This document shows positions 23,970 to 58,392 of a DNA stretch of 64,000 bases, in pieces. This DNA comes from Chrysopilus asiliformis. Taxonomy: Eukaryota; Arthropoda; Insecta; Diptera; Rhagionidae. Under the pieces are notes generated by a model that had not been told where the DNA came from, did not search any database, and saw only the letters and a list, made by a program, of their open reading frames with translations. Made by a program: the position numbers and the translations under genes. Position 1 is the stretch's first letter, and each line of letters begins with the position of its first letter. Where the stretch lies: positions 50,083,231-50,147,230 of the forward strand of contig OZ035962.1 of assembly GCA_964034945.1 (NCBI GenBank), given 5' to 3'.

Positions 23970-24014
23970 AGCACTCCTGAAGAAGCCTAGCGCTAGCAGG
24001 CGAAACGTCGAGGC
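23970..24014 (+). ncRNA. hammerhead-like ribozyme, Penelope type (plus copy)
   Basis: Same motif as on the minus strand at 21288-21331: CUGAAGA at 23977-23983, GCC...GGC helix II, GAAAC at 24002-24006, then GUC with the predicted cut after 24009 and GAG pairing with the CUC before CUGAAGA. Occurrence at the same place in both inverted copies is expected from their shared origin. Confidence 0.45.
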
Positions 24015-24402
24015 ATATAATACATAATGTTCAACATATAATTGGAGTTTTAATCCAGACCGTATAACCCGAGAAAACTCAACGTTAGAATCATAAACGA
24101 TCGAGAATATAAGATAATCATTAGGAGTTTTTTACATATATATTCACAAAACCCATGATTACTCAACACTAGTTCAACTTGACTTACTTCACTGTCATTC
24201 TGACCCCCCCATATATAAGTAACTTATTTCGTTAGTAAGAGAGATATATTTCGGTCCCAGCATTAAAGTTCTATTCTCAAAGAACGTAAAAATAAAACGC
24301 AAAAGTAAAGATATTAAGAGCAAGAACGTACAAACCATAATTTTTTTTTCTTGTTCTTTGGAGCGTTTTGCTGAAGTGCCGAATTTTGTTCTCTAGAGTG
24401 AT

Positions 24403-26300: not shown

Positions 26301-26500
26301 NNNNNNNNNNNNNNNNNNNNNNNNNNNNNNNNNNNNNNNNNNNNNNNNNNNNNNNNNNNNNNNNNNNNNNNNNNNNNNNNNNNNNNNNNNNNNNNNNNNN
26401 NNNNNNNNNNNNNNNNNNNNNNNNNNNNNNNNNNNNNNNNNNNNNNNNNNNNNNNNNNNNNNNNNNNNNNNNNNNNNNNNNNNNNNNNNNNNNNNNNNNN
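26301..26500. other. assembly gap of exactly 200 N
   Basis: The run of N lies within the right arm of the fold-back. By symmetry with the left arm, 25189-25444 should lie here, so about 256 bp are missing. The number 200 looks like a placeholder. Reading frames crossing this block are meaningless. Confidence 0.95.
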
Positions 26501-32500: not shown

Positions 32501-35500
32501 AGACAGACTGACAGACAGACTGACAGACAGACTGACAGACAGACTGACAGACAGACTGACAGACAGACTGACAGACAGACTGACAGACAGACTGACAGAC
32601 AGACTGACAGACAGACTGACAGACAGACTGACAGACAGACTGACAGACAGACTGACAGACAGACTGACAGACAGACTGACAGACAGACTGACAGACAGAC
32701 TGACAGACAGACTGACAGACAGACTGACAGACAGACTGACAGACAGACTGACAGACAGACTGACAGACAGACTGACAGACAGACTGACAGACAGACTGAC
32801 AGACAGACTGACAGACAGACTGACAGACAGACTGACAGACAGACTGACAGACAGACTGACAGACAGACTGACAGACAGACTGACAGACAGACTGACAGAC
32901 AGACTGACAGACAGACTGACAGACAGACTGACAGACAGACTGACAGACAGACTGACAGACAGACTGACAGACAGACTGACAGACAGACTGACAGACAGAC
33001 TGACAGACAGACTGACAGACAGACTGACAGACAGACTGACAGACAGACTGACAGACAGACTGACAGACAGACTGACAGACAGACTGACAGACAGACTGAC
33101 AGACAGACTGACAGACAGACTGACAGACAGACTGACAGACAGACTGACAGACAGACTGACAGACAGACTGACAGACAGACTGACAGACAGACTGACAGAC
33201 AGACTGACAGACAGACTGACAGACAGACTGACAGACAGACTGACAGACAGACTGACAGACAGACTGACAGACAGACTGACAGACAGACTGACAGACAGAC
33301 TGACAGACAGACTGACAGACAGACTGACAGACAGACTGACAGACAGACTGACAGACAGACTGACAGACAGACTGACAGACAGACTGACAGACAGACTGAC
33401 AGACAGACTGACAGACAGACTGACAGACAGACTGACAGACAGACTGACAGACAGACTGACAGACAGACTGACAGACAGACTGACAGACAGACTGACAGAC
33501 AGACTGACAGACAGACTGACAGACAGACTGACAGACAGACTGACAGACAGACTGACAGACAGACTGACAGACAGACTGACAGACAGACTGACAGACAGAC
33601 TGACAGACAGACTGACAGACAGACTGACAGACAGACTGACAGACAGACTGACAGACAGACTGACAGACAGACTGACAGACAGACTGACAGACAGACTGAC
33701 AGACAGACTGACAGACAGACTGACAGACAGACTGACAGACAGACTGACAGACAGACTGACAGACAGACTGACAGACAGACTGACAGACAGACTGACAGAC
33801 AGACTGACAGACAGACTGACAGACAGACTGACAGACAGACTGACAGACAGACTGACAGACAGACTGACAGACAGACTGACAGACAGACTGACAGACAGAC
33901 TGACAGACAGACTGACAGACAGACTGACAGACAGACTGACAGACAGACTGACAGACAGACTGACAGACAGACTGACAGACAGACTGACAGACAGACTGAC
34001 AGACAGACTGACAGACAGACTGACAGACAGACTGACAGACAGACTGACAGACAGACTGACAGACAGACTGACAGACAGACTGACAGACAGACTGACAGAC
34101 AGACTGACAGACAGACTGACAGACAGACTGACAGACAGACTGACAGACAGACTGACAGACAGACTGACAGACAGACTGACAGACAGACTGACAGACAGAC
34201 TGACAGACAGACTGACAGACAGACTGACAGACAGACTGACAGACAGACTGACAGACAGACTGACAGACAGACTGACAGACAGACTGACAGACAGACTGAC
34301 AGACAGACTGACAGACAGACTGACAGACAGACTGACAGACAGACTGACAGACAGACTGACAGACAGACTGACAGACAGACTGACAGACAGACTGACAGAC
34401 AGACTGACAGACAGACTGACAGACAGACTGACAGACAGACTGACAGACAGACTGACAGACAGACTGACAGACAGACTGACAGACAGACTGACAGACAGAC
34501 TGACAGACTGACAGACAGACTGACAGACAGACTGACAGACAGACTGACAGACAGACTGACAGACAGACTGACAGACAGACTGACAGACAGACTGACAGAC
34601 AGACTGACAGACAGACTGACAGACAGACTGACAGACAGACTGACAGACAGACTGACAGACAGACTGACAGACAGACTGACAGACAGACTGACAGACAGAC
34701 TGACAGACTGACAGACTGACAGACAGACAGACTGACAGACAGACTGACAGACAGACTGACAGACAGACTGACAGACAGACTGACAGACAGACTGACAGAC
34801 AGACTGACAGACAGACTGACAGACAGACTGACAGACAGACTGACAGACAGACTGACAGACAGACTGACAGACAGACTGACAGACAGACTGACAGACAGAC
34901 TGACAGACAGACTGACAGACAGACTGACAGACAGACTGACAGACAGACTGACAGACAGACTGACAGACAGACTGACAGACAGACTGACAGACAGACTGAC
35001 AGACAGACTGACAGACAGACTGACAGACAGACTGACAGACAGACTGACAGACAGACTGACAGACAGACTGACAGACAGACTGACAGACAGACTGACAGAC
35101 AGACTGACAGACAGACTGACAGACAGACTGACAGACAGACTGACAGACAGACTGACAGACAGACTGACAGACAGACTGACAGACAGACTGACAGACAGAC
35201 TGACAGACAGACTGACAGACAGACTGACAGACAGACTGACAGACAGACTGACAGACAGACTGACAGACAGACTGACAGACAGACTGACAGACAGACTGAC
35301 AGACAGACTGACAGACAGACTGACAGACAGACTGACAGACAGACTGACAGACAGACTGACAGACAGACTGACAGACAGACTGACAGACAGACTGACAGAC
35401 AGACTGACAGACAGACTGACAGACAGACTGACAGACAGACTGACAGACAGACTGACAGACAGACTGACAGACAGACTGACAGACAGACTGACAGACAGAC

Positions 35501-38500
35501 TGACAGACAGACTGACAGACAGACTGACAGACAGACTGACAGACAGACTGACAGACAGACTGACAGACAGACTGACAGACAGACTGACAGACAGACTGAC
35601 AGACAGACTGACAGACAGACTGACAGACAGACTGACAGACAGACTGACAGACAGACTGACAGACAGACTGACAGACAGACTGACAGACAGACTGACAGAC
35701 AGACTGACAGACAGACTGACAGACAGACTGACAGACAGACTGACAGACAGACTGACAGACAGACTGACAGACAGACTGACAGACAGACTGACAGACAGAC
35801 TGACAGACAGACTGACAGACAGACTGACAGACAGACTGACAGACAGACTGACAGACAGACTGACAGACAGACTGACAGACAGACTGACAGACAGACTGAC
35901 AGACAGACTGACAGACAGACTGACAGACAGACTGACAGACAGACTGACAGACAGACTGACAGACAGACTGACAGACAGACTGACAGACAGACTGACAGAC
36001 AGACTGACAGACAGACTGACAGACAGACTGACAGACAGACTGACAGACAGACTGACAGACAGACTGACAGACAGACTGACAGACAGACTGACAGACAGAC
36101 TGACAGACAGACTGACAGACAGACTGACAGACAGACTGACAGACAGACTGACAGACAGACTGACAGACAGACTGACAGACAGACTGACAGACAGACTGAC
36201 AGACAGACTGACAGACAGACTGACAGACAGACTGACAGACAGACTGACAGACAGACTGACAGACAGACTGACAGACAGACTGACAGACAGACTGACAGAC
36301 AGACTGACAGACAGACTGACAGACAGACTGACAGACAGACTGACAGACAGACTGACAGACAGACTGACAGACAGACTGACAGACAGACTGACAGACAGAC
36401 TGACAGACAGACTGACAGACAGACTGACAGACAGACTGACAGACAGACTGACAGACAGACTGACAGACAGACTGACAGACAGACTGACAGACAGACTGAC
36501 AGACAGACTGACAGACAGACTGACAGACAGACTGACAGACAGACTGACAGACAGACTGACAGACAGACTGACAGACAGACTGACAGACAGACTGACAGAC
36601 AGACTGACAGACAGACTGACAGACAGACTGACAGACAGACTGACAGACAGACTGACACTGACAGACAGACTGACAGACAGACTGACAGACAGACTGACAG
36701 ACAGACTGACAGACAGACTGACAGACAGACTGACAGACAGACTGACAGACAGACTGACAGACAGACAGACTGACAGACTGACAGACAGACTGACAGACAG
36801 ACTGACAGACAGACTGACAGACAGACTGACAGACAGACTGACAGACAGACTGACAGACAGACTGACAGACAGACTGACAGACAGACTGACAGACAGACTG
36901 ACAGACAGACTGACAGACAGACTGACAGACAGACTGACAGACAGACTGACAGACAGACTGACAGACAGACTGACAGACAGACTGACAGACAGACTGACAG
37001 ACAGACTGACAGACAGACTGACAGACAGACTGACAGACAGACTGACAGACAGACTGACAGACAGACTGACAGACAGACTGACAGACAGACTGACAGACAG
37101 ACTGACAGACAGACTGACAGACAGACTGACAGACAGACTGACAGACAGACTGACAGACAGACTGACAGACAGACTGACAGACAGACTGACAGACAGACTG
37201 ACAGACAGACTGACAGACAGACTGACAGACAGACTGACAGACAGACTGACAGACAGACTGACAGACAGACTGAAGATGACTGACAGACTGACAACAGACT
37301 GACAGACAGACTGACCGACAGACCTGACAGACAGACAGACTGACAGACAGACTGACAGACAGACTGACAGACAGACTGACAGACAGACTGACAGACAGAC
37401 TGACAGACAGACTGACAGACAGACTGACAGACAGACTGACAGACAGACTGACAGACAGACTGACAGACAGACTGACAGACAGACTGACAGACAGACTGAC
37501 AGACAGACTGACAGACAGGACTGACAGACAGACTGACAGAAGACTGACAGACAGACTGACAGACAGACTGACAGACAGACTGACAGACAGACTGACAGAC
37601 AGACTGACAGACAGACTGACAGACAGACTGACAGCAGACTGACAGACAGACTGACAGACAGACTGACAGACAGACTGACAGACAGACTGACAGACAGACT
37701 GACAGACAGACTGACAGACAGACTGACAGACAGACTGACAGACAGACTGACAGACAGACTGACAGACAGACTGACAGACAGACTGACAGACAGACTGACA
37801 GACAGACTGACAGACAGACTGACAGACAGACTGACAGACAGACTGACAGACAGACTGACAGACAGACTGACAGACAGACTGACAGACAGACTGACAGACA
37901 GACTGACAGACAGACTGACAGACAGACTGACAGACAGACTGACAGACAGACTGACAGACAGACTGACAGACAGACTGACAGACAGACTGACAGACAGACT
38001 GACAGACAGACTGACAGACAGACTGACAGACAGACTGACAGACAGACTGACAGACAGACTGACAGACAGACTGACAGACAGACTGACAGACAGACTGACA
38101 GACAGACTGACAGATGACAGACTGACAGACAGACTGACAGACAGACTGACAGACAGACTGACAGACAGACTGACAGACAGACTGACAGACAGACTGACAG
38201 ACAGACTGACAGACAGACTGACAGACAGACTGACAGACAGACTGACAGACAGACTGACAGACAGACTGACAGACAGACTGACAGACAGACTGACAGACAG
38301 ACTGACAGACAGACTGACAGACAGACTGACAGACAGACTGACAGACAGATGACAGACAGACTGACAGACAGACTGACAGACAGACTGACAGACAGACTGA
38401 CAGACAGACTGACAGACAGACTGACAGACAGGACTGACAGACAGACTGACAGACAGACTGACAGACAGACTGACAGACAGACTGACAGACAGACTGACAG

Positions 38501-41007
38501 ACAGACTGACAGACAGACTGACAGACAGACTGACAGACAGACAGACTGACAGACAGACCTGACAGACAGACTGACAGACTGACAGACAGACTGACAGACA
38601 GACTGACAGACAGACTGACAGACAGACAGACTGACAGACAGACTGACAGACAGACTGACAGACAGACTGACAGACAGACTGACAGACAGACTGACAGACA
38701 GACTGACAGACAGACTGACAGACAGACTGACAGACAGACTGACAGACAGACTGACAGACAGACTGACAGACAGACTGACAGACAGACTGACAGACAGACT
38801 GACAGACAGACTGACAGACAGACTGACAGACAGACTGACAGACAGACTGACAGACAGACTGACAGACAGACTGACAGACAGACTGACAGACAGACTGACA
38901 GACAGACTGACAGACAGACTGACAGACAGACTGACAGACAGACTGACAGACAGACTGACAGACAGACTGACAGACAGACTGACAGACAGACTGACAGACA
39001 GACTGACAGACAGACTGACAGACAGACTGACAGACAGACTGACAGACAGACTGACAGACAGACTGACAGACAGACTGACAGACAGACTGACAGACAGACT
39101 GACAGACAGACTGACAGACAGACTGACAGACAGACTGACAGACAGACTGACAGACAGACTGACAGACAGACTGACAGACAGACTGACAGACAGACTGACA
39201 GACAGACTGACAGACAGACTGACAGACAGACTGACAGACAGACTGACAGACAGACTGACAGACAGACTGACAGACAGACTGACAGACAGACTGACAGACA
39301 GACTGACAGACAGACTGACAGACAGACTGACAGACAGACTGACAGACAGACTGACAGACAGACTGACAGACAGACTGACAGACAGACTGACAGACAGACT
39401 GACAGACAGACTGACAGACAGACTGACAGACAGACTGACAGACAGACTGACAGACAGACTGACAGACAGACTGACAGACAGACTGACAGACAGACTGACA
39501 GACAGACTGACAGACAGACTGACAGACAGACTGACAGACAGATTGACAGACAGATTGACAGACAGACTGACAGACAGACTGACAGACAGACAGACTGACA
39601 GACAGACTGACAGACAGACTGACAGACTGACAGACAGACTGACAGACAGACTGACAGACAGACTGACAGACAGACTGACAGACAGACTGACAGACAGACT
39701 GACAGACAGACTGACAGACAGACTGACAGACAGACTCAGACTGACTGACAGACTGACTGACAGACTGCTGACAGCAGACTGACAGACAGACTGACAGACA
39801 GACTGACAGACAGACTGACAGACTGACAGACTGACAGACTGACAGACTGACAGACTGACTGACAGACTGACAGACTGACAGACTGACAGACTGACAGACT
39901 GACAGACTGACAGACTGACAGACTGACAGACAGACTGACAGACAGACTGACAGACAGACTGACAGACAGACTGACAGACAGACAGACTGACAGACAGACT
40001 GACAGACAGACTGACAGACAGACTGACAGACAGACTGACAGACAGACTGACAGACAGACTGACAGACTGACAGACAGACTGACAGACAGACTGACAGACA
40101 GACAGACTGACAGACTGACAGACTGACAGACTGACAGACAGACAGACAGACAGACTGACAGACTGACAGACTGACAGACTGACAGACTGACAGACTGACA
40201 GACTGACAGACTGACAGACTGACAGACTGACAGACTGACAGACTGACAGACTGACAGACAGACTGACAGACAGACTGACAGACAGACTGACAGACAGACT
40301 GACAGACAGACTGACAGACAGACTGACAGACAGACTGACAGACAGACTGACAGACAGACTGACAGACAGACTGACAGACAGACTGACAGACAGACTGACA
40401 GAACAGACTGACAGACAGACTGACAGACAGACTGACAGACAGACTGACAGACAGGACTGACAGACAGACTGACAGACAGACTGACAGACAGACTGACAGA
40501 CAGACTGACAGACAGACTGACAGACAGACTGACAGACAACTGACAGACTGACAGACTGACAGACAGACTGACAGACAGACTGACAGACAGACTGACAGAC
40601 AGACTGACAGACAGACTGACAGACAGACAGACTGACAGACAGACTGACAGACAGACTGACAGATAGACTGACAGACTGACAGACTGACAGACTGACAGAC
40701 TGACAGACAGACAGACTGACAGACAGACTGACAGACAGACTGACAGACTGACAGACTGACAGACTGACAGACTGACAGACAGACAGACTGACAGACTGAC
40801 AGACAGACAGACTGACAGACTGACAGACTGACAGACTGACAGACTGACAGACTGACAGACTGACAGACTGACAGACAGACAGACTGACAGACTGACAGAC
40901 AGACAGACTGACAGACTGACAGACTGACAGACAGACTGACAGACAGACTGACAGACAGACTGACAGACAGACTGACAGACAGACTGACAGACAGACTGAC
41001 AGACAGA
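26591..41007 (+). repeat. 14.4-kb tandem array, unit ACAGACAGACTG
   Basis: About 1,200 units of a 12-bp repeat (two GACA plus one GACT). The middle (about 28.9-36.6 kb) is almost perfectly regular. Units of 8 bp (GACTGACA) and other lengths appear near the right end (39.8-40.25 and 40.66-40.95 kb). Single-base indels cluster at 37.26-38.6 and 39.73-39.85 kb. Because 12 is a multiple of three and no stop occurs in several frames, the array opens frames thousands of codons long, such as the 4,821-codon one on the minus strand. These are not genes. Confidence 0.97.
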
Positions 41008-42049: not shown

Positions 42050-43485
42050 TTAACTAATGTTCGGGAAGGATAATGTTACAGGATCTGGATAAGTATATGG
42101 AGTAGTGGTTTGGAATTTTGTGGTCAAGAGTTTTGACCGAAGAAGGTAAAAAATGAAAGCTAGGGATAATATTAGGATAATTATTATTGCGTCGGATGCA
42201 ATAGATGTAATGTTATTTGTAGAAAAGTAATCAAGCTTTTTAACGTTATCCAGGTGAAGCCTATGTAAGTATTCCAAGTCGAGTTTTATATCCTTTTCAG
42301 TGAGGTTGCCTAGGAGGCCTGTGGGTAATGGATGAAATGTTTGAATTTCCGTGCTGGTGTACTCGACGTTGTTAATTCGTATTGTGTCATTTTGGAAATT
42401 AACTACAAATGTTCCGTTGAGGTTTTGTGTTTTGTTTTGATGATGAAGTTTCCCATTAAAGTTCGTAAGAAATACCGTATTTTCGTTGATGACTTCGATT
42501 ATTGGTTTACTATGGTACTGATAAGTACAGGATGCGTTGATTCCGTCGAGGATTTGTGATACACAATCGTCAGGGGCTAATTTTGTTAGCTGGTTCCTGT
42601 TGCAGATTGTTATATTTTGCATCGTTGTGCAGCTCCCTTGCACGCCATACCGTGTTTGCTGCGTTACCAGTAGGCTGGAATAATTTAGGAGGATCATTTT
42701 GCTTTCAGTGATCGTTGAGCGAATTAGAATGTGGTTGAAGTTCGTGGCTTCCGTTTTAGGTAAACATACAACGTACAGGAGTAACGAGTCCTTCATTAGC
42801 ATCATGGGTTGTGCATATTCGATGGCTTGAATTTCATTGTCGTAAGGCAGTGTTTCGATTTGGGATAGAATTTCGGATATCTCCATGTGGTCCAAGAGAT
42901 TTGAATTGACTACGCCGCTTTTGGCTAGTTGGCTGGCCAATACTATTTCGTGGATTTCGTCCTCAAGGATTCCTAGCTTGTTGAAAATCATTTGTTCGTA
43001 TTTACCATTATCGTACTCGCTGATATCTGAGACGATTCGATTATAGTTGTCTATAATTTCAGTTGATATTTTGGTAAAATATTCATTGATCTTGTACTGT
43101 TTGTTGTTGTTGCTAATTATTTCGTTTTGACTTTTAAGGATATTGTTCCAATCGGTTGCGTCGGGGTTTCCCGCAATCCACTTCCAAGCTGAGCCTATCC
43201 AGTTTATGGCACGCTTTGGCCTAGTTGTTTGGAGCTGTCTGAGTAATCCTTCTATTTTTGAAACTCGATGATGGAGTTGTGGTACTAAGATGCTGGATCT
43301 GTTAAGCTTGTGTTTTATTGTTTGATCAATATTCTTTAGTATCGCCTCGTAGTTTGCTAGGTTTATGGTGTGAATTAGTTTGAAATCTCCACTCATGATT
43401 TTCCCAAATCCTAATCGCATTGTCATAAGCGGTTTGTTGTATTTGTAGATGTTAAGAGATGCGTCTACCGTCCATAATGTTATTC
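42050..43485 (-). CDS. env: errantivirus-like envelope glycoprotein
   Basis: The native part encodes about 475 residues. The reading frame stays open up to 43651, but those first ~57 residues come from the inserted 21-bp-repeat element. A basic R-P-K-R furin-type cleavage site is followed by a fusion-peptide-like A-I-N-W-I-G-S-A-W-K-W segment, as in insect errantivirus and baculovirus F-type envelopes. Several N-x-S/T sites lie in the ectodomain. A hydrophobic membrane anchor (I-I-I-I-L-I-L-S-L-A-F-I-F-Y-L-L) is about 45 residues before the end, followed by a short cytoplasmic tail. No signal peptide is visible, because the insertion lies at the 5' end of the gene. Env is normally made from a spliced RNA; splice sites were not determined. 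Confidence 0.85.
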
Positions 43486-43487
43486 TA

Positions 43488-44382
43488 TACCTTTTCAACT
43501 TCAAATTGGAAATAAGCAATATCAAATTGGAAATAAGCAATATCAAATTGGAAATAAGCAATGTCAAATTGGAAATAATCATTTTCAAATTGGAAATAAT
43601 CATTTTCAAATTGGGAATAATCATTTTCAAATTGGGAATAATCATTTTCAAATTGGAAATAAACTTTAAAAATTGAAAATAATCATTAAAAATTGAAAAA
43701 AATCATTAAAAATTGGGAAAAATGGTTTTTAAACGATAAAAGAAGTTGTTAAGTTTTTCATTTGTTGCATATATAAAAATAATATTTTTGCTCTTAAAAT
43801 GCCGTATATTAAGAAAACGGAAGCTGATAATATTAAAAAAACAAATTTGTGCTTTTTATAACAATGGTGGGGATTGGAGAACTTGCTTGGTCAGCTCTTA
43901 AGGCTTCTATTAAACGAGATTTAGCAGGTGAAATGCCACAGATTTTAACATGTGAAAATAGGACAAATTTGTCCCAAACCGAATTTCGCCTACAAAGGAT
44001 TGAAAATATTATACAGCGGAATGTACCAAATTTATCTGTTGCAAATTGTGCTAAATATGTTGCTTATGTTCAAAAATTCATACCAGATGTTTTAAATTTG
44101 ATTTGTGTGTTTTTTTAACTTAAATGATGTTTTCCAATTTTTAATGATTATTTCCAATTTTTAATGATTTTTTTCAATTTTTAATGATTATTTTCAATTT
44201 TTAAAGTTTATTTCCAATTTGAAAATGATTATTCCCAATTTGAAAATGATTATTTCCAATTTGAAAATGATTATTCCCAATTTGAAAATGATTATTCCCA
44301 ATTTGAAAATGATTATTTCCAATTTGACATTGCTTATTTCCAATTTGATATTGCTTATTTCCAATTTGAAGTTGAAAAGGTA
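43488..44382. mobile_element. 900-bp inverted-repeat element built of 21-bp units, inserted at pol/env junction
   Basis: Both ends are TACCTTTTCAACTTC in inverted orientation, flanked by TA, and lead into arrays of a 21-bp unit (caaattggaaataagcaata plus one base). The left array spans 43500-43700 and the right 44150-44370. The middle (43700-44140) is unique and contains a short frame (43849-44118) shared with the truncated copy at 16276-16740. TA duplication suggests a mariner- or similar-type MITE. It separates pol from env in the provirus, so it inserted after integration. Confidence 0.8.
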
Positions 44383-47300
44383 TAGAATAGATGGAACGTT
44401 TTTTAAGTGGGATTTGTGAATTCTTTTCCTCGTAGCTGTGGTAATGGTGACGCGATTGTTTTGAGCTACTGTTTCCTTTACGAATAGTGGTTTTTCTTTA
44501 GTTTTAATTTGTTTATTTTTTTTAAACACAGTGTCGCCTGGTTGATATTGTTTTGGTTTCTTTCGTTTCGCGTTGTGCCTGTCGATTTGATTCCTCTGTT
44601 TCCGTCTAATCTCGCATTGTAGATTTTCATGTAACTTTTCTTGGAAGTTCGTCAAATTTTGATAGTTAATTCTCTGAGATCTTCCGTAGAATATGTCGGA
44701 TGGTTTAGTTTTGGTGACGGAGTGAAATGAGTTGTTGTATCTGTCGACAGAAATGTTGACAATTTCTTTTAGGGACCGGTTTGTATTTTCCTTTTGAAGG
44801 CATCTTATAATTTCCAGAACCGTAGAGTGAACGCGTTCGATAGCACCGTTAACTTCGCTTTTTTGTGGCGGAGCCAAATAGACGGTTATGCCTAACGATT
44901 CGACATAGTTCAGAACCGTGGGACTAATGAAGCTGCCTTCATTGTCCGAAACTATCATTCTTGGGACCATGAAATAATGGATCAAATTAACTATCTTTTT
45001 CCGTAAGTAAGGAGCAGATTTGTTTTTGATGTGGAAATACTTGGCAAATTTACTGAATTTGTCAACGCAAGTTAAAAATTTTTCGCCTTTTAGCGTCATT
45101 ATGTCTATATGTAGTATTTCCGTCGGAAACTGTGGAATCGGTGTCTCCTGTAATTCCGGTTTGTGCGGGTGGCGATCGTATTTGCAACTGTTGCAGGTAT
45201 CGCAATTTACCGTATATTTTTTTATTGATTTACTCATCGCAGGAAAATAGTATTTTTCTAAGATTTGTTCCTTATTCTCCCTGGCATTCCTATGGGCTCT
45301 TTTGTGCTCATCCTGTATAATTTTGATTTTATTATCTTCATTGGAGATATCTTGAACTACTCGTTGTGTGATTCGTATCTTGAATTTTGAAAAGTGTTCC
45401 CTATAGATTTCTTGTAGTAGCTGAATGTAGTTTTCCGGGATTTTGATGCCGTTGACCACATTTGGGTTTAGGTATTCCTTTAGTATTTTTATTAAATTTT
45501 GTCTATTGATTTGATGTAGTCGAATGTAATGTCTAAAGTATCCTGGGTGAGGTTCTTCGTGGCCGTATATCTCTTTACCTTCGGAGATTAAGATTTGTTT
45601 TTTGAAGACGTTTATTGGTGCCTCGCAACTTGGTATGAGGTCGCTGTTGTCTTCATTTGCACTGTGAGCCGTTCCAGAGCTGTTTGTTAGTACGTTTGTC
45701 TCGGTTGGTAGCCTAGAAAGGGCGTCTGCAACGACATTAGTTTTCCCTGGTTTGTAGATGAGCTCGTAATTGTATTCATCTATACGAGACTTCCATCTTT
45801 TTAGCTTCGCATTGTGATTCCGGTTACTAAGGGCGAATGTTAGTGGCTGGTGGTCAGTGAGAATTTTAATTTTTTTTGCTCCGTAGAGGTATGTTCGAAG
45901 TTTATCTAAGGACCACACTATGGCTAACATTTCCTTTTCTCCCGTGGAATAATTTTCCTCGGTCTTGTTTAGAGATCTTGATATGTAAACTACCGGTCTA
46001 TCTTTGCCGATTTCGCCTTGCGAAAGAACTGCTCCGACTGCGTAGTTTGACGTATCTGTTGTCAGGATGAAAGGTTTTTCGAAGTCCGGGAATGCTAGGA
46101 CTTCTGAGGAAGTGAGAAGTTCTTTTAAACAGTTGAAAGCTTCGATCTCTGCGATTCCCAATTGAATATCTTTCTTCTTAGACTGATTGGCCTTGATTTG
46201 GGCATTTTCACCTCTCGTTAGCTGCGTCAATGGCTTTGCGACTTTTGCAAAATCTTTGACAAACTTTCGGTAATACGAGGCCAAACCGAGAAAGGCTTTT
46301 AGGTCTTTCAGGTTCTGAGGGGGCTTGATATTTCTAATGGCAGAAATTTTCTTAGGGTCTGGTAGAATTCCTTCTTCCGAAACAACATATCCCAAAAATT
46401 CGACTTGCTTTTTCAGAAATTTTGATTTTTCCAAGTTTACTTTTAAGTTGGCTTTTTCCAGATGAGTAAGAACAGTCTCCAGATTGAGTAAATGTTCCTC
46501 TTCTGTCTTGCCAAGGATAATTACGTCGTCGATATAGACGTAACATATTTTACCGATGAGTGGTTTAAGTACGTCATCGATCATTCTTTGGAAGATCGCC
46601 GGTGCGTTCTTCAAACCAAAAGGAAGTCTGGTAAACTCGTATTTGCCATTTGCTGTGGAAAAAGCGGTTTTGGCGATATCATTCTCTTTCATGCGTATTT
46701 GGTGAAACCCTGAAGTGAGATCGATGGTTGTAAAGTATTTGCTTTGGTTAAAGCTTGCAAGGGTGTTGGTGATTTCCGGGATTGGATAGGTGTCGGGTAT
46801 TGTTATGGCGTTTAGCCTTTTGAAATCAATAACGAGTCTATATTGCTGCTCTCCGGCTGAATTCGGTTTTTTGGGCACTATCCAAAGGGGTGAATTGTAT
46901 GGACTTTTTGATGGACGTATAATTCCATCTTTAAGCATTTTTGATATTTGTGTTTCCACTTCTTGTCTCAAGTTGACAGGATAGGAATACGACTTCGTAT
47001 ATATTGGTTCGAACGTTGAAGTTCTTATCTCGGCTCTGACATTAGTTTCAACTACGTCTTCGTCGTTTACTGGGCCGAAAATCAGTGGGTGGTTGTTTAG
47101 AATAGTGTGCAGCTTTTTTTTGAGTTTTTGGTCCAGCTCATCGCACTTGACTTCAATATTGTTGACTTGTCTAGATACTCTAGATTTTAAGGGAATTTTA
47201 ATATTGGGTTTTATTTTGAGGACATGGTTTCCTCGATCTATTACAGCCTCTAGCTCTTTTAGAGTGTCGTCTCCGATGATACCATCGAACGACTTAAGTC

Positions 47301-47568
47301 CAGGTAGAACGAAAAATTCTAGTGTGGAGTTATTCCCAATGCTTTGAAAAAAACGACCCGTAACCTTATGGGTTATAGGTATGTTGCCTGCGGCTGAATG
47401 AATGTTAAATGGTTTTTGAACTGGTTTGGCGTTTTGTGATAACTGAACTGAAACGAAATTTTTATTGGCTCCGGTGTCGATCAGGAATTTCAGCACCTGG
47501 CCGTCTTTTTTCTTATATTCTATGTATGGAATGCTAGATAGGCGTCTATCATAAAATTTAGATCGCAT
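44194..47568 (-). CDS. pol: gypsy-type pol polyprotein (protease, RT, RNase H, integrase)
   Basis: The frame is open over 1,124 codons, in the -1 frame relative to gag. Domains in order: aspartic protease (D-T-G-A at 31-34); reverse transcriptase (L-V-I-D-F-K near 245, L-P-F-G-L-K-N-A-P near 315, catalytic Y-I-D-D at 345-348); RNase H (T-T-D-T-S-N-Y-A near 503, T-D-H-Q-P near 570); integrase with an H-H-C-C zinc finger (C-D-T-C) and D-D-E residues (H-I-D-I, V-S-D-N-E-G-S-F, S-E-V-N-G). All catalytic positions appear intact. The last ~63 residues are 7-residue repeats read from the inserted element; the natural end is near 44390, as judged against the second element's pol. The first usable residue is set by frameshifting at 47553-47559, not by the ATG at 47568. 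Confidence 0.93.
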   Translation of the reverse strand: MRSKFYDRRLSSIPYIEYKKKDGQVLKFLIDTGANKNFVSVQLSQNAKPVQKPFNIHSAAGNIPITHKVTGRFFQSIGNNSTLEFFVLPGLKSFDGIIGDDTLKELEAVIDRGNHVLKIKPNIKIPLKSRVSRQVNNIEVKCDELDQKLKKKLHTILNNHPLIFGPVNDEDVVETNVRAEIRTSTFEPIYTKSYSYPVNLRQEVETQISKMLKDGIIRPSKSPYNSPLWIVPKKPNSAGEQQYRLVIDFKRLNAITIPDTYPIPEITNTLASFNQSKYFTTIDLTSGFHQIRMKENDIAKTAFSTANGKYEFTRLPFGLKNAPAIFQRMIDDVLKPLIGKICYVYIDDVIILGKTEEEHLLNLETVLTHLEKANLKVNLEKSKFLKKQVEFLGYVVSEEGILPDPKKISAIRNIKPPQNLKDLKAFLGLASYYRKFVKDFAKVAKPLTQLTRGENAQIKANQSKKKDIQLGIAEIEAFNCLKELLTSSEVLAFPDFEKPFILTTDTSNYAVGAVLSQGEIGKDRPVVYISRSLNKTEENYSTGEKEMLAIVWSLDKLRTYLYGAKKIKILTDHQPLTFALSNRNHNAKLKRWKSRIDEYNYELIYKPGKTNVVADALSRLPTETNVLTNSSGTAHSANEDNSDLIPSCEAPINVFKKQILISEGKEIYGHEEPHPGYFRHYIRLHQINRQNLIKILKEYLNPNVVNGIKIPENYIQLLQEIYREHFSKFKIRITQRVVQDISNEDNKIKIIQDEHKRAHRNARENKEQILEKYYFPAMSKSIKKYTVNCDTCNSCKYDRHPHKPELQETPIPQFPTEILHIDIMTLKGEKFLTCVDKFSKFAKYFHIKNKSAPYLRKKIVNLIHYFMVPRMIVSDNEGSFISPTVLNYVESLGITVYLAPPQKSEVNGAIERVHSTVLEIIRCLQKENTNRSLKEIVNISVDRYNNSFHSVTKTKPSDIFYGRSQRINYQNLTNFQEKLHENLQCEIRRKQRNQIDRHNAKRKKPKQYQPGDTVFKKNKQIKTKEKPLFVKETVAQNNRVTITTATRKRIHKSHLKNVPSILYLFNFKLEISNIKLEISNVKLEIIIFKLGIIIFKLGIIIFKLEIIIFKLGIIIFKLEINFKN

Positions 47569-48710
47569 TCGTTTAGCTCATCTTCTGATTGATCTGGTTC
47601 AGCGAAAGCATCTTCTTCCTGCTGATTATAGAATTCGAGATTTTCTTCTTGGGTTTGAAGATTATTTATTCTCTGTGTTTTCCTAGCGAATTGATTGGAA
47701 TCATTCGATCGTTTGTTAAGGTGAAAGGACGATGGCTTATTCATATAGTCTACTTGACGAGTTTGTACAGACCTATCGACATCCATTGGAACTGGTGGCT
47801 TAGGGTAGTTGGGTCTGGGTGGTGGATTGTTTCTGTAAAGTTGGTTATGTGCATCGTGTTGTGCGTTGTAGGCTTTAATTTGATTAGATAAACTTGATAT
47901 TGGAATTCGCTTATTACCGTGGTTAAACCGTGGAGTGAATATTTGGTTCACTGGGGCAGATATGGAATTGTTAAAATTCCTATTGTGTATTGGGATGTTC
48001 CTAAAGTTTAGGTTTTGAAACTCTAAACAGGATGCGTAAGCTTCTGGGAGTGTTTGTGGTTTCTGAATTATAAGCATTCTGGAGAGATCTCCATTTAGTC
48101 CCCGAACGAACACATCTAGTGCCCTGTTTCGATAGTTTTCGGTTAGCGCAACTACCGTTTCTTTAGAATAGTCCTCTGTTTTTATCTTGTTGATTAGAAG
48201 TGATAGCTGATGATTAACGGCTGCGTAAACCTCATCAACGCTTTTATCTTTCTGAGTCATCGCGTGTAGCTGATGCTCTAAGGTTCTTACGTCCCTCTTG
48301 TCCGCGTAATGAAGGGACAAGCATTTCTTAATGCTATTGTAAGAAATTAGGGCGGCGTCAGCCGGGCCTCTTATTTTTTGTCTGATGTGTCTTAAAATTG
48401 CCCTGAATATGGGTTTGTCTTTAACTATTTTGTAATCGTCCAATATTGTTTCGACGTTGTGAATCCATGACACATACTGCACCGGATTACCGTCAAAAGC
48501 TTGAAGATCCCTTACAGAGTCGGGAAGCTTTTTTATTGCTTCGAGATCTTCTGGGGTTCTAGGACCCGAAATAGTTTGTTCTGTGTGTGTATCAATTTGT
48601 TCCCGTTTATTTTCGAGTTGTATTAATCGATTTTCTATTACTTTAATCTGCTCGATCTGAGCATTAACTGCTCCGGTCAATTGCACAATTGTTTGTTGGA
48701 GAGTATCCAT
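47520..48710 (-). CDS. gag: gypsy-type Gag
   Basis: A 396-residue frame starting at an ATG and ending TAG at 47520. The N-terminus is heptad-like and glutamine-rich (coiled coil about residues 1-40). A capsid-like middle follows (F-D-G-N-P-V-Q-Y-V-S-W near 74, Q-L-H-A-M-T-Q near 147), then an Asn/Pro-rich region and a very acidic C-terminus. There is no CCHC zinc knuckle, as is usual for errantivirus Gag proteins. It overlaps pol by 49 bp in the -1 arrangement. Its role is to form the particle core and bind RNA. Confidence 0.85.
   Translation of the reverse strand: MDTLQQTIVQLTGAVNAQIEQIKVIENRLIQLENKREQIDTHTEQTISGPRTPEDLEAIKKLPDSVRDLQAFDGNPVQYVSWIHNVETILDDYKIVKDKPIFRAILRHIRQKIRGPADAALISYNSIKKCLSLHYADKRDVRTLEHQLHAMTQKDKSVDEVYAAVNHQLSLLINKIKTEDYSKETVVALTENYRNRALDVFVRGLNGDLSRMLIIQKPQTLPEAYASCLEFQNLNFRNIPIHNRNFNNSISAPVNQIFTPRFNHGNKRIPISSLSNQIKAYNAQHDAHNQLYRNNPPPRPNYPKPPVPMDVDRSVQTRQVDYMNKPSSFHLNKRSNDSNQFARKTQRINNLQTQEENLEFYNQQEEDAFAEPDQSEDELNECDLNFMIDAYLAFHT
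47553..47559 (-). promoter_or_regulatory. -1 ribosomal frameshift heptamer A AAT TTT
   Basis: On the minus strand AAATTTT is positioned exactly as X XXY YYZ in the gag frame: codons CTA, AAT, TTT. After a one-base slip the pol frame reads K-F-Y-D-R-R-L and stays open into protease. The gag stop is 31 bp further on. The position and frame make this the likely gag-pol shift site. A downstream RNA structure was not worked out. Confidence 0.7.
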
Positions 48711-49695
48711 TTTTTATAGGTTTAAGGATGTTCACGAATCAGAGCAAGATGATATTATAATCAGAATAATCTAAGGCACAACTCGATTATGTTATTTTGT
48801 TAACGATCGCGTAGCAACGAAAATAGCTCACAACAATCTTAACAATTAACTTTTTACTTTAATTGGATATGATAACACGATCTTAATTTCTAAAGAATAT
48901 GTTTGTTTAACAATATGTTTTATTTCTTATTTTTTCTCGAATATAACTTTTTACGACTTCTTATTTTTTGTTATTTCATATATATTTAATATTTTTTATT
49001 CGTACAATAATATGCAAATATTGTGTTTCACTATTTATGACTTTACGTTACACGTTTCTTTATTTTCTTTTGTTTGAAGTTATTTAATTAATATTTACGT
49101 TTTCTTTTTCGTTTCTTAACTTAAAAAAATGGAAAATTACTGAGAGAACTTACATTAAATATAGAATTTTCGCTGTTTGCATGATGAATCGTCCGTAGAA
49201 TCCTTTTTGGCTCTAACCGTTGATTTGTTAAAGTTGTGCGTTGGATGGGGCCTACTGCGGTACGGGTTGGATCACTATCTGCTTTTGCCTCGAATTTTTT
49301 CACGAAGTTCCTCTTTGATAACTTTTCCTGGTCCGGTTGTCCTGCTTGGCGATCGCTGAGTTGCTCGTTCCTTTTCGGCAATTTCTGTCGTCAGGTTTTT
49401 GTTTTCTCACTTGATCGCACTTATTTTTTAGGATCAGATTTCTCTCCAGCCTCTGAGAGTGTTTTAAGGTAGTTTTTGGCTTGACAATACTGCCTCTGAT
49501 CACAAATGTTCACAATATTATTATTATTTTTGAACTAGTTACAAAAGGATTTTAAACTGCGATTTTTACTTTATTGTAAAATTTTTTCACTTTAGTAAGT
49601 TTTTTCACTTTAGTAAATTTTTTTAACTTTAGTAAATTTTTTAACTTTAGTAAATTTTTTTCGCGTTTTCTTTGCACGGATGTTCGGACTTTTTT
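48711..49695 (-). other. provirus 5' leader
   Basis: About 1 kb between primer site and gag ATG, AT-rich. The 49575-49665 part repeats 'ttttaactttagtaaa' units. It probably holds packaging and splice-donor signals, which cannot be defined by eye. Confidence 0.6.
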
Positions 49696-53586: not shown

Positions 53587-55831
53587 TTAGTTAGGTAGGT
53601 TTTTTATTTGCGCTTTGTGTATTTTTTTCCCAGACATTGTTGTTATTGTGACCTTATTGTCTTGTGCCACAATTTCCTTTCTGAATTTTGGTTTAGTTTT
53701 TCCCTGGATTTGTTTAATTGCAATGTAAACTGTCTCCCCTGGCTTATAGGTTTTTGGCTCGTTTCTTTTAGAGTTTTCTCTTTTGATTTTATTCTTTTGG
53801 TTCCTTTTTATTTTTGCTATAACGTCTTCGCTAACTTTCGCCTTGAAGTCTATCAGGTTTTGGTAGTTGATTCGTTGTGATCTACCGAAGAAGACATCAC
53901 TAGGTTTTTTGTTGGTTACCGAATGTACACTTGTGTTATATCTGTCTACGGAAATGTTGATCAATTCCTTAATAGACAGGTCTTTGTACTCTTCCTGTAG
54001 ACACCGCGTTATCTCTGTTATGGTGCTATGTACTCTTTCTACGGTTCCGTTAACCTCACTTCTTTGTGTTGGAGTTAAGTACACTTCGATTCCTAACGTC
54101 TTTAGGTAATCGGTTATAATGGGACTAACGAAGCTTTTCTCATTGTCCATTACGAGAATTTTCGGTGCTGTGAAATAGTGCAGGACTTTAATGATTTTAT
54201 CTCTCAAATGCAGTACCGATTTGTCTTTAATGTTGAAAAATTTTGCGAATTTGGAAAATTTGTCGATGCAAGTAATAAATTTTTGGCCTTTAACTTCCAG
54301 TATGTCAATGTGAAGTATTTCAGACGGATATGTTGGGATGGGAGTTTTTTGGAGTTGTGGTCTATTAGGGTGTCGGTCATATTTATTGGTATTACAGATT
54401 TCGCAGTTCTTAGTGTATTTTTTTATAAGATTCGTCATCTGCGGGAAATAAAATTGCTCAAGTATTTGTTCTTTATTTTCCCTCCAATTGCGATGGGCTC
54501 GCTTGTGTTCTTCCTGAATTATCCGAAATCTGTTTTCTTCACTTACAATGTCCTGAACTATGCGTTGTGTAATGCGAATTTTGTAGTTTGTTAGATGTTC
54601 CTTGAAGATGTCTTGCACTGCTTGAATGAATTTTTCTGGGATTTTTAGACCGTTTATTATTGTTGGTTGCAGTCTTTCCTTAAGAATTTCTGTTAATTTT
54701 TCCTTGGTAATGTTTGGCAAGTCAACATTTTTGGTACCCTGGGTGAGGTTGCTCGTACGCGTAAAGCTCGTCTTTCTCACGTATAATTATCTGATTTCTG
54801 AATACGTTTATCGGTATTTCGCAGTGTGGAATTAGTGAGGTGTTGTCCTCTTCTGCGCTATGCGCTGTTTCGGTAGATGATAAAGTTGAAGCAGCTTCAC
54901 TAGGAGCAGTTTCCGTAGTTGACGATGTTAAAACGTTGGCTTCTATTTTTAGCCGTGACAGGGCGTCGGCAACCTTGTTCGTAGGTCCTGGCTTGTAAAT
55001 GAGCTCGTAGTTGTACTCCTCGATTCTCGCTTTTCATCTCTTAAGTTTGGCGTTGTTATTCCTATTACTTAAGGTGAAGGTTAGTGGTTGGTGGTCCGTG
55101 ACTATTTTGACTTTTTTCGCCCCATACAGATAGCTCCGAAGATTGTCTGGGGCCCATACGAATGCCAATAGCTCCTTCTCGTTGGCTGCGTAGTTTTCCT
55201 CTGTTTGGTTTAAAGATCTAGATATAAAGGTGATAGGGCGATCTTTGCCAATCTCGCCCTGAGAAAGGACGGCACCGATTGCATAGTTCGATGCATCCGT
55301 TGTGAGGACGAATGGCTTTCCGAAATCAGGAAAGATTAATACTTCGGATGACGAGAGCGCTTCTTTTAGATGTTTAAACGATTCTAATTCTTTTTGATTA
55401 AGTTTTATTTTTATGTTTCTTGATTTGGCTGAACTTATTTGCGCGTTTGCTCCCCTAGTGAGATTGGTTAATGGTTTCGCGATTTTTGCGAAGTCTTTCA
55501 CAAAGCGTCTATAATATGACGCGAGACCGAAAAATTGCTTCAGCTCTTTGAGATTCTCGGGTGCCTTGATTGTCGAAATTGCTCGAATTTTTTCGGGATC
55601 CGGCTTTATACCTTTATTGGTTATGATATAACCCAGGAATTCAGTTTCAGATTTTAAGAACTTTGTTTTGTCTAGATTCACTCTCAGATTTGCCTGCTCG
55701 AGTTTTATGAGAATTTTTTCTACGTTTTTCATATGTTCTCTTTCCGTCCGTCCCCCAAATATTATGATATCGTCTATATAGACAAAACAGATCCTTCCGA
55801 TGTATTCCTTCAATACGTCGTCGATCATCCT
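53587..55831 (-). pseudogene. second gypsy-type pol, 5'-truncated with stop and frameshift
   Basis: The order is RT (from R-M-I-D-D-V-L, with Y-I-D-D at about 55783), RNase H (T-T-D-A-S-N-Y-A; T-D-H-Q-P) and integrase (C-E-I-C-N-T-N-K-Y-D zinc finger; H-I-D-I, M-D-N-E-K-S-F, S-E-V-N-G). It is clearly related to the intact pol at 44-47 kb but diverged, so it is a different, older family. Damage: TGG to TGA in frame near 55034, a one-base shift near 54740 in a run of A, and loss of everything upstream of the middle of RT at about 55831. The stop at 53587 seems natural. No env or 3' LTR was found downstream. Confidence 0.88.
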
Positions 55832-55991
55832 TGAGCCATTTTTAATGGTCGTTTTTACTACCCTTTGTTTTGAAATGAACATTTGTTTTGTTTTAGCTTT
55901 GCCTTTATCAGTCGTGAAAGTTTTTTCTGTTAAACCTGAATTAGGTCCAGTGCAACTGTGGCACTGTGTTATCACCGTGAAGGTTCATGTT

Positions 55992-56064
55992 TGTTTCGGG
56001 CTCAGGGGAGTGACGAAGCCCTCGTCAGACAGAGTAGTGTCAACTCCTCCTGCTCTCTATTACA
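55992..56064 (-). ncRNA. hammerhead ribozyme candidate, monomer 1
   Basis: Mirror-orientation copy of the motif described at 57065-57137, all core bases present. Predicted cut after the A at 56061 on the minus strand. Confidence 0.65.
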
Positions 56065-56347
56065 GAAATTGTTTATTGGATGGATCATAGGAACTTACAA
56101 GAAGTTTATATATTCACCATCTGATTTAATTCGGCTTGTGCGAATTATTTTAGAAATCTCCGGCTCGAGAACTTTATTGTGGATTTTTGCATTGACAATG
56201 CAAATGGTTTTCGACTGTGATTCAAATGAAATGAACATTTGTTTTGTTTTAGCTTTGCCTTTATCAGTCGTGAAAGTTTTTTCTGTTAAACCTGAATTAG
56301 GTCCAGTGCAACTGTGGCACTGTGTTATCACCGTGAAGGTTCATGTT

Positions 56348-56420
56348 TGTTTCGGGCTCAGGGGAGTGACGAAGCCCTCGTCAGACAGAGTAGTGTCAAC
56401 TCCTCCTGCTCTCTATTACA
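56348..56420 (-). ncRNA. hammerhead ribozyme candidate, monomer 2
   Basis: Same motif 356 bp further on, minus strand, core unchanged. Confidence 0.65.
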
Positions 56421-56703
56421 GAAATTTTTTATTGGATGGATCATAGGAACTTACAAGAAGTTTATATATTCACCATCTGATTTAATTCGGCTTGTGCGAA
56501 TTATTTTAGAAATCTCCGGCTCGAGAACTTTATTGTGGATTTTTGCATTGACAATGCAAATGGTTTTCGACTGTGATTCAAATGAAATGAACATTTGTTT
56601 TGTTTTAGCTTTGCCTTTATCAGTCGTGAAAGTTTTTTCTGTTAAACCTGAATTAGGTCCAGTGCAACTGTGGCACTGTGTTATCACCGTGAAGGTTCAT
56701 GTT

Positions 56704-56776
56704 TGTTTCGGGCTCAGGGGAGTGACGAAGCCCTCGTCAGACAGAGTAGTGTCAACTCCTCCTGCTCTCTATTACA
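56704..56776 (-). ncRNA. hammerhead ribozyme candidate, monomer 3
   Basis: Same motif, minus strand, core unchanged. This monomer carries the 66-bp deletion outside the motif. Confidence 0.65.
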
Positions 56777-57064
56777 GAAATTGTTTATTGGATGGATCAT
56801 AGGACCTTACAAGAAGTTTATATATTCACCATCTGATTTAATTCGGCTTGTGCGGGTTTCGACTGTGATTCAAATGAAATGAACAAAAAAATGTTCATTT
56901 CATTTGAATCACAGTCGAAAACCATTTGCATTGTCAATGCAAAAATCCACAATAAAGTTCTCGAGCCGGAGATTTCTAAAATAATTCGCACAAGCCGAAT
57001 TAAATCAGATGGTGAATATATAAACTTCTTGTAAGTTCCTATGATCCATCCAATAAACAATTTC

Positions 57065-57137
57065 TGTAATAGAGAGCAGGAGGAGTTGACACTACTCTGT
57101 CTGACGAGGGCTTCGTCACTCCCCTGAGCCCGAAACA
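57065..57137 (+). ncRNA. hammerhead ribozyme candidate, monomer 4 (reference copy)
   Basis: In order: helix III strand TGT ending with the cleavage triplet GUA (57066-57068, cut after 57068); helix I ATAGAG (57069-57074) pairing with CTCTGT (57095-57100) around a 20-base loop; CUGACGA (57101-57107); helix II GGGCT (57108-57112) with AGCCC (57127-57131) around a 14-base loop; GAAA (57132-57135); helix III ACA. All invariant core bases (C3-A9, G12-A14, A15.1-U16.1, H17) are met and the 10.1-11.1 pair is G-C. Helix III is short (3 bp) and open, a type III topology. Tandem monomers with hammerheads are known from satellites and retrozymes; activity here is untested. Confidence 0.7.
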
Positions 57138-57420
57138 AACATGAACCTTCACGGTGATAACACAGTGCCACAGTTGCACTCGACCTAATTCAGGTTTAAC
57201 AGAAAAAACTTTCACGACTGATAAAGGCAAAGCTAAAACAAAACAAATGTTCATTTCATTTGAATCACAGTCGAAAACCATTTGCATTGTCAATGCAAAA
57301 ATCCACAATAAAGTTCTCGAGCCGGAGATTTCTAAAATAATTCGCACAAGCCGAATTAAATCAGATGGTGAATATATAAACTTCTTGTAAGTTCCTATGA
57401 TCCATCCAATAAACAATTTC

Positions 57421-57493
57421 TGTAATAGAGAGCAGGAGGAGTTGACACTACTCTGTCTGACGAGGGCTTCGTCACTCCCCTGAGCCCGAAACA
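57421..57493 (+). ncRNA. hammerhead ribozyme candidate, monomer 5
   Basis: Same motif 356 bp after the reference copy, plus strand, core unchanged. Confidence 0.65.
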
Positions 57494-57776
57494 AACATGA
57501 ACCTTCACGGTGATAACACAGTGCCACAGTTGCACTGGACCTAATTCAGGTTTAACAGAAAAAACTTTCACGACTGATAAAGGCAAAGCTAAAACAAAAC
57601 AAATGTTCATTTCATTTGAATCACAGTCGAAAACCATTTGCATTGTCAATGCAAAAATCCACAATAAAGTTCTCGAGCCGGAGATTTCTAAAATAATTCG
57701 CACAAGCCGAATTAAATCAGATGGTGAATATATAAACTTCTTGTAAGTTCCTATGATCCATCCAATAAACAATTTC

Positions 57777-57849
57777 TGTAATAGAGAGCAGGAGGAGTTG
57801 ACACTACTCTGTCTGACGAGGGCTTCGTCACTCCCCTGAGCCCGAAACA
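57777..57849 (+). ncRNA. hammerhead ribozyme candidate, monomer 6
   Basis: Same motif, plus strand, core unchanged. Confidence 0.65.
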
Positions 57850-58132
57850 AACATGAACCTTCACGGTGATAACACAGTGCCACAGTTGCACTGGACCTAA
57901 TTCAGGTTTAACAGAAAAAACTTTCACGACTGATAAAGGCAAAGCTAAAACAAAACAAATGTTCATTTCATTTGAATCACAGTCGAAAACCATTTGCATT
58001 GTCAATGCAAAAATCCACAATAAAGTTCTCGAGCCGGAGATTTCTAAAATAATTCGCACAAGCCGAATTAAATCAGATGGTGAATATATAAACTTCTTGT
58101 AAGTTCCTATGATCCATCCAATAAACAATTTC

Positions 58133-58205
58133 TGTAATAGAGAGCAGGAGGAGTTGACACTACTCTGTCTGACGAGGGCTTCGTCACTCCCCTGAGCCCG
58201 AAACA
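58133..58205 (+). ncRNA. hammerhead ribozyme candidate, monomer 7
   Basis: Same motif, plus strand, core unchanged. Confidence 0.65.
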
Positions 58206-58392
58206 AACATGAACCTTCACGGTGATAACACAGTGCCACAGTTGCACTGGACCTAATTCAGGTTTAACAGAAAAAACTTTCACGACTGATAAAGGCAAAG
58301 CTAAAACAAAACAAATGTTCATTTCATTTGAATCACAGTCGAAAACCATTTGCATTGTCAATGCAAAAATCCACAACCCTTTGTTTTTTTTA

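Follow-up and report, generated by a model that had tools for sequence, protein, structure and literature searches.

Within the window, by which we mean the whole 64-kb stretch of DNA analysed here, positions 55872–58375 are made up of tandem 356-nt units in two arms that lie head to head between 12-bp duplications. The left arm (55872–56881) has its sense strand on the minus strand and its 3' end at unit position m190, referred to below as site 1, and the right arm (56882–58375) has its sense strand on the plus strand and its 3' end at m240, referred to as site 2. Unit numbering runs from m1 to m356, with m1 at 57069, the first base past the predicted cleavage site. The left target-site duplication, ACCCTTTGTTTT at 55860–55871, is an exact 12-bp match to the right copy, ACCCTTTGTTTT at 58376–58387. 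Five units are complete from cleavage site to cleavage site, each being 356 nt long and 0–1 base off the reference unit, and the G+C content of the unit is 38.8%. These values bear out the 356-bp monomer given in a preliminary description of this DNA. The tandem array reported there for the same interval holds as far as the tandem units are concerned, but the units do not share a single orientation: with head-to-head arms enclosed by 12-bp duplications, the whole array is one insertion (locus L058 in the genome-wide numbering used below).

Close to the junction, m212–m274 are absent from the left arm. The head-to-head junction itself (56858–56919) is a 28-nt inverted repeat centered on an A run, and its hairpin is visible in the alignment to mir-548; the microRNA labels (mir-548) placed on the array by an Rfam search at E ≤ 10 were dismissed as a chance label on this palindromic junction. 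The long frames of the array are antisense 168-aa repeats only, which by eye do not have the look of a reverse transcriptase.

Hammerhead motif, chance level and predicted folding

A descriptor scan for type I and type III hammerheads, with a helix I of at least 5 bp and a helix II of at least 4 bp, was run on both strands of the 64 kb and returned seven hammerheads in the array, all of type III and one per 356-nt unit. Four of them are located on the plus strand at 57065–57137, 57421–57493, 57777–57849 and 58133–58205 (copies 1 to 4), with cleavage predicted after 57068, 57424, 57780 and 58136, respectively. The other three occupy the minus strand of the left arm at 56704–56776, 56348–56420 and 55992–56064, where cleavage is predicted 3' of 56773, 56417 and 56061 on that strand. 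The core CUGANGA / GAAA / NUH is present in type III order with three helices in all seven copies, confirming the number of hammerhead-bearing copies, the order and the helices that had been proposed. The same scan found no further type I or type III hammerhead elsewhere in the 64 kb on either strand, and none on the antisense strand of the units. Random sequence generated to match the dinucleotide composition of the window (Markov-1, 448 Mb) contained the strict motif (helix I of 6, helix II of 5 and helix III of 3 bp) twice, corresponding to 0.0006 per 64 kb over both strands, and a looser type III motif 21 times, corresponding to 0.006 per 64 kb.

A search against hammerhead models, put forward as a check in the preliminary description, did not lend support and gave the first of the three outcomes named there as speaking against the idea: no hammerhead was obtained with Rfam 15 at the gathering threshold over the whole window, nor at E ≤ 10 when the array, the Penelope region and six further loci were searched. 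The long loops of the motif may be the reason for this miss. Loops 1 and 2 are predicted to be able to pair with each other over 9–12 bp, and the resulting duplex (−18.6 kcal/mol) was equalled in stability by a fraction of 0.0004 among 5000 shuffles of the loops. When the hammerhead region is folded on its own, the energy minimum is a blocked form that pairs the loops and lacks helices I and II (−22.7 kcal/mol, compared with −9.9 kcal/mol for helices I and II without the pseudoknot). A helix III of just 3 bp was likewise counted against a ribozyme. In the accessible text of the respective papers, blocked hammerheads are described for plant retrozyme RNAs (PMC4918200) and pseudoknots are considered likely in about 40% of hammerheads (PMC3088659), so that neither objection is fatal. 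The circular fold of the unit has 52% of its bases paired (z −2.3).

The lack of a hammerhead on the antisense strand also bears on the origin of the unit, as it argues against the genomic capture of a circular RNA that replicated itself in the manner of a viroid or HDV; hammerhead-bearing HDV-like agents have a ribozyme on both strands. An HDV-like agent that encodes its antigen would not fit into 356 nt, and the many dispersed insertions with duplications described below fit a retroelement instead. Exact motif searches of viral and prokaryote contigs gave no match. In favor of such a captured replicon, type III hammerheads with a loop-loop pseudoknot are known from HDV-like RNAs of toad and termite, according to the available portions of PMC7936874, and the unit size falls within the viroid range as given in the accessible text of PMC8781251. 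On balance we regard this origin as very improbable.

Copies across the genome and insertion footprints

The search for further copies that the preliminary description had suggested was successful: the 429-Mb genome (42 contigs) holds at least 193 unit matches, counted among the best candidates scored, and at least 38 loci were discerned among the matches listed (L031–L068, on contigs C1–C4). Units at places far apart are 99–100% identical and others about 88–98%, and the near-identity of units at distant sites suggests recent movement. Full-length matches elsewhere mostly measure 354–365 nt, with extremes of 324 and 379 nt. The hammerhead region was recovered in 130 instances over the 38 loci, representing 33 distinct sequences. 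Strict motifs are retained 121 times over these loci, with at least one in 36 of the 38; all except one of the 121 lie on the sense strand within aligned arms, and the remaining one lies in an unaligned part of the array L044.

Over 44 distinct units, 15 of which come from the single array L044, divergence from the reference amounts to 2.1% in the hammerhead and 3.8% in the remainder, the latter value being raised by about 0.35 points through a private change in the reference unit and standing at about 3.5% without it. In L034 there are 0.3 differences per unit in the hammerhead (71 nt) and 15 in the remainder (285 nt). The hammerhead is not the most conserved block of the unit, since m121–168 and m313–356 vary less, and the core is kept in most variants except at N7. 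An alignment of 29 of 31 hammerhead variants, from which one variant with a rearranged 5' side and one with a small deletion were omitted, showed that all 6 pairs of helix I form in every one of the 29. Pair 2 of this helix occurs as U-A in 18, U-G in 10 and C-G in one variant, and pair 3 as A-U in 23 and G-U in 6. The potential pairing between loops 1 and 2 comprises 9 pairs, with 97.3% of cells paired across the 29 variants. The percentage paired was matched by 5 of 500 column shuffles, and pair-type covariation did not exceed that of column shuffles, 192 of 500 of which reach it. Covariation may therefore be taken as supportive but thin.

The insertions leave a recurrent footprint. Arms are head to head at 23 of the 38 loci and in single orientation at the other 15. 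A duplication of at least 9 bp flanks 17 of the 23 head-to-head loci, its length being 12–15 bp at 16 and 9 bp at one. Among 506 control pairings, each made of a left end and a right end taken from different loci, 4 shared at least 9 bp, none shared 12–15 bp and none shared 12 bp or more. Outer arm ends fall predominantly at two places of the unit, site 1 (m176–205, about m190) and site 2 (m224–250, about m240), the bounds of which were set after the data had been seen. Of 59 arms (63 less those of L034 and L044, which were left out), 30 end at site 1, 21 at site 2 and 8 elsewhere. At 16 of the 17 loci with a duplication one site-1 end is paired with one site-2 end, the exception being L032 (site 1 and m350), and none of the 23 head-to-head loci has two ends of the same kind. 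Seven of these 23 have one end elsewhere, and 6 of the 7 are without a 9-bp duplication. For L046, L059, L062 and L066 the site-2 position is that of the alignment, because the right duplication begins 15–21 nt past the aligned end, and L051 and L056, counted here separately, have flanks in common and may stem from one event. L067 consists of a lone arm, shorter than a unit, which has a 16-bp duplication and ends at m349.

The 5' ends of the arms, some of which are fixed by the way BLAST split the arms, cluster at m55–85, immediately beyond the hammerhead (15 of 63, binomial 0.0003), and again at m126–182 (20 of 63, binomial 0.0015), both windows having been chosen post hoc. The cluster at m55–85 would fit a reverse transcriptase stalling at the folded ribozyme and is taken as a lead only.

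Judged by length, the cleavage junction is traversed by 52 of 59 arms, and 46 of the 59 are longer than 356 nt, from which it follows that either a circle or a multimer that had not been cleaved served as template. Both would explain multi-unit arms equally well, and the element could have spread as uncleaved multimeric transcripts with a hammerhead that no longer matters. The lower nested energy of the blocked fold and the stronger conservation of other blocks agree with this possibility, as does the report that the hammerhead is not required for insertion in vitro, hammerhead mutants of a lizard Penelope-like element inserting normally (PMC11167929). However, 36 of 38 loci have kept the strict motif, the core is intact outside N7 in most variants, and the diverged L034 has accumulated almost all of its differences outside the hammerhead, which renders a dispensable hammerhead unlikely. 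That the motif arose by chance in an ordinary repeat would accord with the negative Rfam result and with L044, a long tandem block without duplication; set against the expectation of 0.0006 per 64 kb, the retention across loci and the dispersed insertions with duplications, we find this hardly credible. The retrozyme-like character proposed in the preliminary description is upheld by geometry, chance level, genome-wide retention and footprints, but the locus is one insertion of a dispersed family and not a satellite block.

Penelope-like elements and a proposed life cycle

The window contains a second head-to-head insertion at 21213–24118, which served for comparison and is flanked by a 14-bp duplication (21199–21212 and 24119–24132). 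Its left end has no tail and its right end carries a tail of about 33 nt. Its 442-aa frame contains a reverse transcriptase domain only (Pfam); we call the element Penelope-like because its relatives share reverse transcriptase families and several of them have a GIY-YIG domain (PF01541). The best named relatives are from Haematobia, Lucilia, Episyrphus and Musca, which makes a dipteran host genome likely. Among the best 40 of 218 candidate 3' ends of Penelope-like elements in this genome, termination occurs at query position 343–351 or at 379, and at least 10 head-to-head pairs were found among these 40, each with one tailed and one tailless end. When L086, L087, L088 and L090, which share flanks, are counted as one event, all 7 independent pairs including that of the window have one end of each kind and 6 of the 7 show a duplication of 8–17 bp; the pair L091/L092, about 10 kb apart, has no duplication and may not be a single insertion. 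The 356-nt repeat shares this one-of-each end rule with the Penelope-like elements of the genome, and the Penelope-like mode of insertion, with head-to-head arms and a tail on one of them, fits 16 of the 17 head-to-head loci with a duplication. We conclude that the 356-nt element bears a Penelope footprint.

Three further features were compared between the repeat and the Penelope-like elements. By eye, a CTGA[A/G]GA...GAAACGT motif is present in 11 of 14 sampled Penelope-like 3' ends, where it resembles the minimal hammerheads that published work assigns to such elements. In the repeat, the strands CGACTG (m147–152, 57215–57220) and CAGTCG (m200–205, 57268–57273), both on the plus strand, straddle start site 1; the GACTG...CAGTC stem, which was first spotted by eye, had a counterpart in 194 of 20,000 mononucleotide shuffles and resembles a GACCG...CGGTC stem at tail-bearing Penelope-like 3' ends, the likeness being structural only. 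At the level of primary sequence, similarity between Penelope tails and m181–m242 was not significant (0.43 of shuffles), and the same applied when three tails were tested for such similarity by alignment (514, 2532 and 2378 of 5000 shuffles) and to a profile of the Penelope 3' motif run against the element (85 of 400).

LINEs, too, give duplications of such length and head-to-head inversions, and the right end of L046 bears an A run, so that the same ribozyme element could have been moved by a LINE-type enzyme via ordinary twin priming. Twin priming by LINEs involves a second primer whose annealing position varies, and one end would therefore be expected to scatter. In contrast, the repeat has two fixed sites for its outer ends, each of them used once in 16 of the 17 duplication-flanked loci, and the Penelope-like elements of this genome obey the same rule, which makes a LINE-driven insertion rather improbable in our view.

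With regard to Penelope-type insertion itself, a purified Penelope-like enzyme from lizard cuts and extends both target strands and uses two internal start sites, with start-site use showing no difference from one target strand to the other (PMC11167929). According to the available portions of PMC3846280, Penelope elements may carry a tail on one of their inverted repeats, and head-to-head copies with palindromic junctions are explained by self-priming. Applied to the repeat, this account would have the second arm arise from self-priming (a hairpin) of one cDNA and not from priming on two strands, and the arms do start within 5 positions of each other in L039, L045, L054, L063 and L065 and within 11 in the window locus. 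However, the arm starts are unlike in many loci (m64/m332 in L031, m30/m177 in L046, m247/m60 in L048), meaning that these arms are not mirror copies, and a second arm made by self-priming would not be expected to finish at the other fixed site. Self-priming is accordingly judged improbable.

The family combines a retained type III motif, dispersed and often head-to-head insertions, duplications, two start sites and multi-unit arms. We propose, with a probability of roughly three in four, that it is a non-autonomous retrozyme that has a type III hammerhead with a pseudoknot and is mobilized by Penelope-like enzymes. Its transcript would carry the type III hammerhead with helices I, II and III of 6, 5 and 3 bp and long pairing loops, the hammerhead would cut multimers into 356-nt units, and these units would be closed into circles. 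A Penelope-like reverse transcriptase/endonuclease would then presumably nick both target strands, with each nick serving as a primer for reverse transcription, which would begin near m190 (site 1) from one nick and near m240 (site 2) from the other. The two cDNAs would follow the RNA lengthwise or go round it, in most cases over more than a single unit, and would be joined head to head, giving the inverted tandem arms between duplications of mostly 12–15 bp that are observed; one-arm insertions would occur as well. The helper may be another family than that of the element at 21213–24118, as several Penelope-like families have open frames and most of the 95 Penelope-like protein matches listed are without a stop. 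Counted against this proposal are the missing Rfam hammerhead, the blocked fold, the 3-bp helix III, the stronger conservation of other blocks, the pair-type covariation that does not exceed column shuffles, the modest pairing of the circle (52%), the 15 of 38 loci that are not head to head, the single-arm L067, the lack of a significant match to Penelope 3' ends, the strand and hammerhead results from the lizard enzyme (PMC11167929) and the self-priming account of PMC3846280.

A more specific elaboration, tentative and in our estimate somewhat more apt to be wrong than right, would place a Penelope-like dimer on one hammerhead-made circle, where each of the two subunits would serve one nicked strand and its own site, about 50 nt apart, and both would roll round the RNA to yield head-to-head concatemers with one tail. 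If this were true, animal retrozymes would be parasites of Penelope-like elements, and the ribozyme would share its pseudoknotted type III ancestry with those of insect HDV-like RNAs.

Comparison with known systems

Type I animal retrozymes, Penelope-like candidate helpers and isolated pseudoknotted type III insect motifs are already in print, as far as the accessible parts of the cited papers go. In the literature searched, with preprints and most subscription papers outside it, we came across neither a type III hammerhead in an animal mobile element nor a one-of-each end rule for retrozymes. The available text of PMC7229834 names Penelope-like elements a strong candidate for moving animal retrozymes, and the present element would help to account for the movement of ribozyme-bearing repeats in animals. 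Its two fixed start sites, typically used once each per insertion, and the same rule in the Penelope-like elements of this genome make the guess at the helper directly testable.

The metazoan non-LTR retrozymes of Cervera and de la Peña (2020), taken here from the accessible portions of PMC7229834, carry type I hammerheads and have Penelope-like elements as candidate helpers; as published, they lack LTRs, a primer-binding site and a polypurine tract and give circular RNA in tissues. With these retrozymes the element shares tandem units of 150–450 bp with one hammerhead each (here 356 nt), a G+C content below 50% (here 38.8%), duplications of more than 4 bp and co-occurrence with Penelope-like elements. 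It differs from them in its head-to-head arms with two fixed start sites, and the 52% of bases paired in its circle compare with over 70% in published animal retrozyme RNAs, as given in the available part of PMC4918200. Because its hammerhead is of type III, with no type I match in the scan, the 356-nt element is filed as a variant of the metazoan non-LTR retrozymes and not as a plain member.

A type III hammerhead and a proposed circular RNA intermediate are shared with the plant LTR retrozymes in the accessible descriptions (PMC4918200, PMC7229834), which differ in measuring 600–800 nt, in having 4-bp duplications and in a G+C content over 55%, compared with 356 nt, mostly 12–15 bp and 39% here. 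The preliminary description had called type III unusual in animals. In insects, type III is not unprecedented: the portions of PMC7936874 at hand describe type III motifs with loop-loop pseudoknots in termites, D. pseudoobscura, Rhagoletis, Musca and Hermetia. The element has in common with them the topology, a long helix I side, Watson-Crick pairing between loops 1 and 2 and insect hosts. The termite copies are isolated motifs for which that text names no mobile element, whereas the motif is here part of a dispersed mobile element; the fly motifs were compared by description.

From the Penelope-like elements, finally, the repeat is set apart by the absence, by eye, of a reverse transcriptase or endonuclease frame, and by a full type III hammerhead where sampled Penelope-like elements mostly have a minimal motif (11 of 14, by eye). 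With Penelope-like elements as described in PMC11167929 and the accessible text of PMC3846280, it shares head-to-head inversion, a short duplication, an optional tail on one arm and two internal start sites.

Rarer arm ends and near-matching junctions

In unit numbering (m1 being the base after the predicted cleavage site), one outer arm end lies within hammerhead loop 1 (m28, m29) at two of the retrozyme loci L037, L053, L032 and L067, and at m349-350, near the cleavage site, at the other two; both positions may represent rarer start sites. At L039, L045, L054, L063 and L065, the arm beginnings at the junction are no more than 5 unit positions apart (m67/m68 and m80/m81 are examples). It looks as though the two cDNAs had stopped at a common point on one template, or as though one of them had primed itself.

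Unit variants and a putative promoter

A subfamily comprising L034, L035, L036, L038, L047, L059, L060, L062 and L068 carries a hairpin of different sequence in place of the one preceding site 2 (about m240, one of the two places where most outer arm ends fall), and this substitute hairpin is again followed by ACAA. In the window locus, inspection by eye revealed TATATAAA at 57017-57024, approximately 45 nt 5' of the cleavage site. This is a putative promoter, from which the transcript would begin just before the hammerhead.

Other elements in the window

Reading by eye of the head-to-head Penelope-like insertion at 21213-24118 revealed a minimal hammerhead-like motif, CTGAAGA...CGAAACGTC, at two places (23977-24014, forward strand; 21287-21324, reverse strand), which was not reported by Rfam. 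The 12-bp unit GACAGACAGACT is tandemly repeated in about 1200 copies, forming a 14.4-kb array at 26592-41007, and a gap of 200 Ns (26301-26500) is located near this array. A second Ty3/gypsy-like element is present in fragments (integrase, RNase H and the RT end; 53587-55870), which end immediately left of the retrozyme insertion (55872-58375). The other, an insect errantivirus-like element at 42050-48713, contains gag, pol and env frames, the last two of which overlap 21-bp repeat arrays at their ends; its env frame matches the Pfam family 'Gypsy' (PF07253).
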